Part shown: piece by piece, positions 367 to 1,625 of the stretch
How positions within the stretch are numbered: the first letter of the stretch is position 1
How the letters are laid out: every line of letters starts with the position of its first letter
Assembly: GCA_020832285.1 (NCBI GenBank)
Contig: JAFIFB010000085.1
Span: 1 to 64,000, forward strand
Origin: Balneolaceae bacterium
GTDB taxonomy: Bacteria; Bacteroidota; Rhodothermia; Balneolales; Balneolaceae
Direction: 5' to 3'
Length of the DNA: 64,000 nucleotides
The notes under the pieces: model-generated
Database searches by the model: none
Seen by the model: only the letters and a program-made list of their open reading frames with translations
What the model was told of the DNA's origin: nothing
Made by a program: the position numbers and the translations under genes

Positions 367-609
367 ATGGCTGATAAAAGAAGCAGGAAACGCAAAGCAT
401 ACACCATTGAGCAAGTTCAATTAATCGGCTCTCACGCTTTACAGGAAATGGAACGTATCCTGTTATCTGATAGCGATAACAACGAAAAGATACGAGCAGC
501 CAATGCTATTTCAACGCTCATTAATTCGTACCGGCGACTTGTTGAAACCAGTGAGATTGTGGAACGCTTGGAAGCACTTGAGGAAAGGCAATTGAGAAAG
601 GTGTCCTGA
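367..609 (+). CDS. Small basic/acidic helical protein, first gene of coupled array
   Basis: An 80-residue product with a basic N-terminus (KRSRKRK at residues 4-10) followed by predicted helices and a Glu/Arg-rich C-terminus (VERLEALEERQ). It resembles small proteins encoded near phage packaging genes, but I cannot name a family. The stop TGA (607-609) overlaps the next ATG (609) as TGATG, so translation of the following gene is probably coupled. It heads a run of six overlapping genes. A regulatory or DNA-binding role is only a guess from the basic tail. Confidence 0.6.
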   Translation: MADKRSRKRKAYTIEQVQLIGSHALQEMERILLSDSDNNEKIRAANAISTLINSYRRLVETSEIVERLEALEERQLRKVS

Positions 610-827
610 TGAAAATTGCAGACAGAATAAAAAGACTCGAACAGCAAAAACAGCCTGAGGAGTGGCCAGGCAGTATCACAATTTTTTACGACGGTGACGA
701 AGCACTGGTTATAGAAAGAACTATGCATAACGGCCGGGTAGAGCTAACCGAGAGAGTTATCCCAGCCAGTGAAGCAAAAAAAATTGATCATCCAAACATG
801 CTAATCATTACAAATGAACCTGAATAA
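609..827 (+). CDS. Micro-gene array member 1 (RIxxLE family)
   Basis: A 72-residue product beginning MKIADRIKRLEQ, which matches the MNxxxRIxxLE signature shared by the next four genes. The short N-terminal amphipathic helix (possible coiled coil) is followed by a beta-strand-like segment (WPGSITIFYDGD). The start is the ATG within TGATG at 607-611, preceded by AGAAAGG inside the upstream gene as ribosome-binding site. The 3' end overlaps the next gene by 14 bases. Function unknown. The shared N-terminus with divergent C-termini suggests paralogues that assemble together or share a partner. Confidence 0.6.
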   Translation: MKIADRIKRLEQQKQPEEWPGSITIFYDGDEALVIERTMHNGRVELTERVIPASEAKKIDHPNMLIITNEPE

Positions 828-975
828 GAGAATTGAAAAACTTAAAGTTGAGAACCCGGAAACATTGGATATCGAAGCCGAAACACTATTTGACCGGCTT
901 CCTGAATTGATCAGTGAAGGAAAAACAGAAGTGCCTGAATTCTTGAAACCAAACTTTGAAGGATATGAATCTTAA
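814..975 (+). CDS. Micro-gene array member 2 (RIxxLE family)
   Basis: A 53-residue product starting MNLNKRIEKLKVENPETL, ending at TAA 973-975. It fills what would otherwise be a gap between members 1 and 3, overlapping member 1 by 14 bases and member 3 by 11. The N-terminal helix signature is conserved except for LK in place of LE. The PETL segment recurs in member 5. The C-terminal half is acidic. Function unknown; the call rests on the N-terminal similarity and the tight overlaps on both sides. Confidence 0.55.
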   Translation: MNLNKRIEKLKVENPETLDIEAETLFDRLPELISEGKTEVPEFLKPNFEGYES

Positions 976-1198
976 CAACCGAATAGACCGACTCGAAGAA
1001 ACATCTTCAAACGGCCTACCGTATCCGCTCAATTATTTGAAGGGAAAAATATCAAATGATGATTTTCAGTTTATCAAAGATTCTGAAATCCGGTTCCGGG
1101 ATGCCATGTTTATAGACTCTGAAGGCGAAGAAATCGAACGGTACAGAACAATCTGTGAGAATGCAGGATTACTTCCACCGCTAAATTTTGAGCAATGA
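965..1198 (+). CDS. Micro-gene array member 3 (RIxxLE family)
   Basis: A 77-residue product from the ATG at 965 (MNLNNRIDRLEE). An upstream in-frame TTG at 956 would add three residues, but the ATG aligns with the other array members. The GGA run just before it is too close to be an ideal ribosome-binding site, so initiation is probably by coupling to member 2, which ends at 975. After the helix comes a Pro/Tyr-rich linker and an acidic tail. The stop overlaps the next start as ATGA (1195-1198). Function unknown. Confidence 0.55.
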   Translation: MNLNNRIDRLEETSSNGLPYPLNYLKGKISNDDFQFIKDSEIRFRDAMFIDSEGEEIERYRTICENAGLLPPLNFEQ

Positions 1199-1395
1199 AT
1201 TTATCGAAACGAATTTCCGAACTCGAAAACCGATTAGCGCCAAAAACTCATTTACCAGTGGCATTCATCTTTTCTGATTGCTGCTATTTGAAGGGCAAGC
1301 GGTTCAATTCTGAAAGTGAACTGAATAAGCAGGCCGGTACTTGTTTTAAGATTTATGCAGATAAACCAAAAGGCGAAAAGCCGGTGGAATTATGA
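1195..1395 (+). CDS. Micro-gene array member 4 (RIxxLE family)
   Basis: A 66-residue product beginning MNLSKRISELENRL, then a strand-like LPVAFIFSDCC and a Lys-rich end. It overlaps both neighbours by 4 bases (ATGA), the usual arrangement for translational re-initiation. The Cys-Cys pair parallels a Cys at the same place in member 5 (FVSC). The common layout is an N-terminal coiled-coil helix, then a proline and a beta strand. Function unknown. Confidence 0.6.
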   Translation: MNLSKRISELENRLAPKTHLPVAFIFSDCCYLKGKRFNSESELNKQAGTCFKIYADKPKGEKPVEL

Positions 1396-1625
1396 ACATT
1401 GAAAAAAGAATATCCCATTTAGAAGTAACAAACTCACCAGAGACGCTACCGGAGATTGAAATCACGTTTGTAAGCTGTTCACAGCAGGTAAAGAATCCTG
1501 AACTATTCAGAAAAGTACCTGATGAAATAACCATCGCAGGGAAAAAGGCGTATCGACTCGAGCCGAAAGATTCTAATTTCACGTGTGATTGCCATTGCTG
1601 TAAAAGCAAAGCAAATAAACTTTAA
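1392..1625 (+). CDS. Micro-gene array member 5 (RIxxLE family), Cys-rich tail
   Basis: A 77-residue product beginning MNIEKRISHLEV, then SPETLPEIEITFVSC and a C-terminal CDCHCC cluster (about residues 67-72) that could bind a metal. It is coupled to member 4 by ATGA overlap. It is the last gene of the array and is followed by a strong intrinsic terminator at 1642-1676, so the array (367-1625) looks like one transcription unit. Function unknown. Confidence 0.6.
   Translation: MNIEKRISHLEVTNSPETLPEIEITFVSCSQQVKNPELFRKVPDEITIAGKKAYRLEPKDSNFTCDCHCCKSKANKL

Follow-up and report, generated by a model that had tools for sequence, protein, structure and literature searches.

The PICMI (phage-inducible chromosomal minimalist islands) of the Vibrionaceae are defined by a core set of an integrase, AlpA and a DUF5906 or DUF3987 primase; one of them, PICMI115, consists of six genes next to fis and has no terS homologue (PMC10803314). 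Rpp of the Gram-negative PICIs and Ppi of the SaPIs are small satellite proteins that act on the small terminase (TerS); Rpp, a single protein of ~144–153 amino acids with a DNA-binding domain, forms a heterocomplex with the helper TerS that includes helix-helix contacts and re-aims packaging (PMC6739421). The TerS of RcGTA (gp1) is short and nearly all-helical with no obvious HTH, lies before TerL and recruits TerL through its C-terminal helix (PMC6854486).

Here we describe an array of five overlapping micro-genes in a Balneolaceae bacterium, at the start of a 64,000 nucleotide stretch (JAFIFB010000085.1, positions 1–64,000) that we refer to as the window. The element carrying the array resembled the PICMI in its small size and encoded the whole PICMI core set: an integrase (PF00589), an AlpA-type HTH protein (PF05930/PF12728) and a DUF5906/DUF3987 primase. 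Structural genes are absent from most of both. It differed from the PICMI in being integrated at a tRNA-Val gene with a 16-bp att repeat and in carrying a TerS-like gene, here called the hub or anchor, with the micro-gene array. The capsid set and terminase of their own that mark the cf-PICIs or capsid-forming satellites were not found in the window element as assembled. The likeness to Rpp and Ppi is one of functional analogy: in place of a single protein there are here up to five proteins of 44–160 amino acids, which share a head of ~12 residues, have unrelated tails and are encoded beside the element's own TerS-like gene, and no Rpp/Ppi-type sequence match was found for the micro-proteins in the family libraries. 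In the literature on satellites and small terminases, covered through titles and abstracts and mostly outside subscription journals, arrays of micro-genes with a constant head were absent.

The micro-gene array and its integrative element

The features of the element and its integration site were as follows.

6–266, + strand: small gene belonging to this element, 86 aa, no family match
367–609, + strand: hub (anchor), TerS-like helical protein of 80 aa, MADKRSRKRK...ETSEIVERLEALEERQLRKVS
609–827, + strand: micro-gene 1, 72 aa, head MKIADRIKRLE
814–975, + strand: micro-gene 2, 53 aa, head MNLNKRIEKLK
965–1198, + strand: micro-gene 3, 77 aa from the ATG, head MNLNNRIDRLE
1195–1395, + strand: micro-gene 4, 66 aa, head MNLSKRISELE
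1392–1625, + strand: micro-gene 5, 77 aa, head MNIEKRISHLE
1642–1674, + strand: terminator-like hairpin, 13-bp stem followed by a U-run, z −3.9; ends the operon
2092–2107: att repeat at the right end, 16-bp TGTGGGTGGTACAGGA in the 3′-end of tRNA-Val
2093–2168, − strand: tRNA-Val (tac), the integration site
contig C78, ~30876: left copy of the same att repeat, TGTGGGTGGTACAGGA

An earlier note on this DNA had described five small ORFs with a common N-terminal signature, overlaps of 4–14 nt and one terminator for all five. The coordinates, sizes, overlaps (14, 11, 4 and 4 nt between successive micro-genes) and head alignment all agreed with this description, and a single terminator-like hairpin (1642–1674) was located behind the array. 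The view of the five as a paralogue-like set with constant heads and variable tails on a mobile element also held; the hetero-oligomers, decoys or inhibitors that the note suggested are conjectural. The hub gene (367–609), which had been overlooked, belongs to the same unit, and micro-gene 1 starts on the last base of its stop codon.

Alignment placed the five heads in one register with M1, R6, I7 and L10 invariant and E11 present in four of the five. The motif M-x4-RI-x2-L[EK] occurred in exactly the five micro-genes among the 704 ATG-start ORFs of at least 40 aa on both strands of the window, and in 0/699 of the remainder. The codons at conserved head residues varied (AGA or CGA for Arg, ATA or ATT for Ile, and CTC, CTT or TTA for Leu), with 30 synonymous codon differences among pairs of heads, which showed that the head is conserved as protein and not as DNA. 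This synonymous divergence ruled out an RNA-level or leader explanation of the shared head. In a low-confidence structure model of a micro-protein (pLDDT 56), to which we give no weight as evidence, the head was predicted as a helix over residues 3–14 (~75) and the tail was unreliable.

Position 1 of the window is also where contig C7 begins, so the element is cut there. Its left half was recovered, via the att repeat and the integrase, on contig C78 of the same genome (G000:C78:30876-36774, designated L142). The integrase (C78:31213-32481) was found 0.3 kb past a copy of the tRNA-Val end and was 75% identical to that of L031, an element of R. halophilus. The C78 part encoded, in order, the att repeat, a 54-aa ORF, the integrase (PF00589), a 281-aa protein, an HTH_17/AlpA-like protein, a D5/DUF5906 primase, a DUF6371 protein and a 95-aa ORF; family matches in this half were to PF00589 (4e-15), PF12728 (3e-11) and PF19263 (4e-18). 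The C7 part (1–2107) followed with the 86-aa ORF, the hub, the five micro-genes, the terminator and the att repeat in tRNA-Val. The assembly break therefore lies inside the element, between the 95-aa ORF (C78) and the 86-aa ORF (6–266 on C7), and the element is ~8.0 kb long plus any unassembled gap at the break. No TerL or portal genes were seen in the element gene lists, and no capsid gene was present between the att repeats of the window element as assembled. Six relatives also had att direct repeats at the ends of tRNA-Val or tRNA-Leu, with elements of 5.6–8.7 kb, and small genes like that at 6–266 stood before the anchor in several relatives. As judged from its gene content and att repeats, the array-bearing element is a small, satellite-like integrative element. 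A 184-aa protein of the R. halophilus element (L031:14008-14562) contained an HEYEH (HExxH-like) motif and had no Pfam match. The 185-aa gene of L004 found nothing when it was searched for in the window's own genome.

The hub gene and its likeness to small terminases

The C-terminal helix of the hub (EIVERLEALEE) carried the same motif as the micro-gene heads, and homology linked the hub to a C-terminal module that DUF5681 and a Terminase_2 small subunit have in common. The window hub itself had no match in the family libraries, and a sequence search of the PDB returned nothing. Near-hits in Pfam and PHROG (E 0.01–0.3) were treated as chance. The hub was modelled, as a monomer and with medium confidence (pLDDT 73), as a helical hairpin that matched no PDB structure significantly, so its identification as TerS-like rests on homology and gene order. 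Hub homologues were present in 9 of the 92 genomes of the family. The Balneolota hub profile returned nothing from IMG/VR; related hubs were present on contigs of IMG/VR and otherwise just in a single faecal 'Bacteriophage sp.' record.

DUF5681 (PF18932) includes anchors of Alphaproteobacteria, Enterobacterales and Waddlia that share homology with the window hub in their C-terminal module, and the Balneolota hubs aligned with these DUF5681 hubs over the C-terminal helix (hhalign P 94.7, 28 columns). Canonical DUF5681 genes occupied the usual place of TerS, with a ParB/methylase gene on one side and TerL (identified by eye from its sequence) on the other. These genes lack the helix module, whereas the window hub has the module and lacks the DUF5681 domain. 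In the literature searched, DUF5681 was mentioned for a Salmonella phage only. On a Roseomonas mucosa plasmid (NZ_CP025065.1, L125:5533-6300) a Terminase_2 domain (PF03592, E 3e-33) in the N-terminal part of the protein was fused to the hub's C-terminal module, and this fusion gene was followed by head genes. Additionally, a major capsid gene was found near the hub and micro-genes in four elements (L037, L126, L144 and L145), of which L144 is approximately the same element as L126. In L037 (16764-18017 on G018:C5) this was an HK97-type gene shortly past the hub and its one head gene, and the stretch around it contained no TerL or portal genes. RcGTA gp1 is comparable in being a short, nearly all-helical TerS whose C-terminal helix contacts TerL; it differs in its place before TerL and in having no micro-gene array, and no sequence relation to the hub was shown. 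We infer from the homology and gene order that the hub may act as a TerS.

Comparison of the hub helix with the heads gave consensus sequences of [ED]-[LIF]-E-x-R-[IL]-x-A-L-E for the hub end and [LI]-x-x-R-[LIV]-x-[KR]-L-E for the head, the 4-3 spacing of L/I in the motif being that of two coiled-coil turns. When scored with PSSMs made from the hubs of other groups, four of the five window heads ranked above 99.9% of background 13-mers and all five above 99%. The heads were on average basic (mean charge +1.8) and the hub helices acidic (−1.6), with mixed charges among the window heads (+3, +2, −1, +1 and 0). On a Moellerella wisconsensis plasmid (L145:1086-1915) the hub end (LQREVEELKQAM) and the next small genes (MTMRKTLQQIREQI and MKTKQGIQQLKAMM) were all without the usual R. 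This shared loss of Arg in the hub and two small genes is, as a single case, suggestive of a joint change.

Spread of hubs and heads across bacterial groups

A hub followed by a chain of small head-bearing ORFs was found in 8/8 family relatives, with four head genes in L032, three in L033, two each in L031/L039, L034/L040, L035, L036/L041 and L038, and one in L037. Hub and head arrays recurred in Balneolota, Alphaproteobacteria, Enterobacterales and on a chlamydial plasmid. The hub profile reached a Roseovarius element (L042). Its genes were, in order, an integrase, an AlpA-type gene, DUF3987 and a DUF5681 gene, whose protein has LETSELEKRIEALEDRK at its C-terminal end; behind these came an overlapping run of four micro-genes, their heads of the form RL-x-x-LE. 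Other Rhodobacteraceae and IMG/VR contigs showed the same arrangement. It was also present on a Methylobacterium plasmid (four head genes), on the Waddlia chondrophila plasmid pWc (one head gene), on small enterobacterial plasmids and, with no less than 80% of the query covered, in two E. coli genomes out of 5,426. The earlier note would have taken the array for a coincidence had the head similarity vanished in close relatives or had the members each matched known phage proteins. The similarity persisted in the relatives, no such phage matches appeared in the family searches, and a coincidence limited to Balneolota is contradicted by head arrays in at least four bacterial groups.

Searches with single micro-genes gave little. 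Micro-gene 3 returned nothing from IMG/VR, micro-gene 4 matched the 92 family genomes by its head only in one relative (G043) with the remainder noise, and three micro-proteins (two from the window) had no match among sequenced phages. GTA small terminases were considered as head genes and rejected; the genes 5′ of Terminase_6N in six Rhodobacteraceae genomes were unlike head genes.

Three enterobacterial loci showed further peculiarities. On an E. coli chromosome (L143:8863-9081) and a Shigella plasmid (L127:262-480) one head gene was 5′ of the hub and the others 3′. A 48-bp stretch 3′ of the Shigella hub (L127:1253-1300) by itself also matched 27 more E. coli chromosomes, at a site without annotation, and may be an attachment site or a shared repeat. 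The Enterobacter kobei plasmid L144 (NZ_CP110875.1, 34,300 bp) consisted of four near-identical units of ~8.58 kb, each resembling the 8,580-bp Citrobacter satellite plasmid L126, and is either a natural concatemer or an assembly artefact.

A profile of the hub C-terminal module collected 53 distinct hubs, a few of them near-duplicate or doubtful. At least one head gene was present in the downstream chain of 39/53 and at least two in 21/53; none was detected in 14/53, from which it follows that the array is dispensable. Over the 1.5 kb that follow the hubs, the hub strand had 96 head ORFs and the complementary strand 8, and 14 were counted upstream; the heads were picked by regular expression, so conservation of the motif is in part built in. 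None of 27 canonical DUF5681 genes, which were without the module and several of which were directly before TerL, had head genes (Fisher p 4e-11 against 52 of the module-bearing hubs, uncorrected for relatedness). A DUF5681 subgroup with weak module scores (L082, L084, L086, L092, L096, L116 and L118) had no detected head genes except in L082 (one doubtful GTG-start candidate), which indicates that heads track a subset of hubs. Linkage of head arrays to the hub is well supported. Start/stop junctions were most often −4 (37/70), followed by −14, −1 and −11. Heads were more alike within an array than across arrays (p 0.03 in Balneolota, 0.0005 in the others). A closer match of heads to the hub of their own array than to other hubs was marginal outside Balneolota (p 0.03) and absent within it (p 0.79). 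Co-evolution of heads with their own hub is thus only partly supported and is not claimed.

With the heads removed, similar tail pairs were found mostly across arrays (35, compared with 5 within one array). The tail family of micro-gene 5 was shared with L032 gene 3, L041 gene 2 and L048 gene 2, and the micro-gene 2 tail (VPEFLKPNFxGYES) with L041 gene 1. With 13 members, all in Alphaproteobacteria, one tail family was the largest; it ended ESEEAFxxRV and appeared strand-rich by eye. Among 36 micro-proteins there were no Pfam matches, one match to a PHROG of unknown function and single chance-level matches to NCBIfam and to the PADLOC models of known anti-phage defence (E 0.006 for PADLOC). 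Tandem duplicates occurred in L085, L105, L040 and L125. In L085 (7393-8098) three tandem head genes had clearly duplicated tails, the third truncated, which indicates that arrays expand both through duplication and through the gain of new tails.

Possible roles of the array

Our favoured reading, tentative and short of probable, is that the array is an accessory packaging or interference module of an ~8 kb PICMI-like satellite, in which a TerS-like hub and clip-on micro-proteins with swappable tails would act on helper packaging. The hub would be TerS-like, with an acidic [LIF]xxR[IL]xALE segment at the end of its C-terminal helix, and each micro-protein would join a basic version of this short helix to a different small tail domain. 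The micro-proteins would be produced via translational coupling with the hub, and their constant heads would clip onto the hub helix or onto the TerL/TerS surface normally touched by it. The tails would be presented to packaging or capsid proteins of the helper phage, and the satellite may thereby either block the packaging carried out by different helpers or redirect it. What we infer here is that heads dock on the hub and which proteins the tails target; steps of the proposed kind exist, namely the Rpp-TerS heterocomplex and the recruitment of TerL by RcGTA TerS. A broader form of this reading, which we hold with more doubt, is that of an undescribed modular system of Balneolota, Proteobacteria and Chlamydiota, in which an acidic-helix TerS-like hub and an expandable set of basic-head micro-proteins that exchange tails may form a plug-in adaptor kit matching satellites to helpers.

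The main alternative is that the heads mimic the C-terminal helix of the hub or of the helper TerS and compete with it for TerL or the TerS oligomer, an interference like that of Ppi and Rpp in which the hub itself would not be bound. The shared [LI]xxR[LI]xxLE of head and hub helices speaks for mimicry, Ppi and Rpp are precedents (PMC6739421) and the C-terminal helices of RcGTA TerS bind TerL (PMC6854486). However, basic heads and acidic hub helices fit pairing better, and the heads go with the module-bearing hub, ordinary phage DUF5681 loci having none. We regard mimicry as unlikely, though the strongest of the competing explanations.

Major capsid genes directly beside the hub and heads in L037, L126, L144 and L145, and the coiled-coil genes of ~185 aa often found 5′ of the hub, would suit a role in the virion or in capsid size, with the hub and micro-proteins as a small scaffold or injected complex that the heads assemble and whose tails contact the capsid. 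This is improbable, as most array-bearing elements are missing a capsid gene and no virion-protein family was matched. We give slightly less weight still to the array as accessory cargo, for anti-phage defence or superinfection exclusion, that only borrows the slot 3′ of the hub and a duplicated leader for its expression. The variable gene number (0–5) and tail turnover would be expected of such cargo; set against it are the specific link to one hub module, the synonymous divergence, by which the head is kept as a protein and not as an expression leader, and the lack of any defence-family match beyond one weak chance-level hit. Coincidence, or functionless decay of duplicates of one gene, is hardly credible despite the tandem duplicates: the overlapping frames are intact, conserved codons have diverged synonymously, head ORFs are in excess downstream of the hubs, and the arrays recur across four bacterial groups, a recurrence that already refutes it.

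How tiny satellites without packaging genes of known function enter varied helper particles is open for most families. If the reading of a hub with clip-on micro-proteins is true, a conserved hub with interchangeable partners would be a direct answer to this question, and it would assign a role to hubs of the DUF5681 type and to many ORFs of ~45–160 aa that lack annotation. The micro-genes match almost nothing in present family libraries, and the shared head offers a simple search pattern for such satellites.
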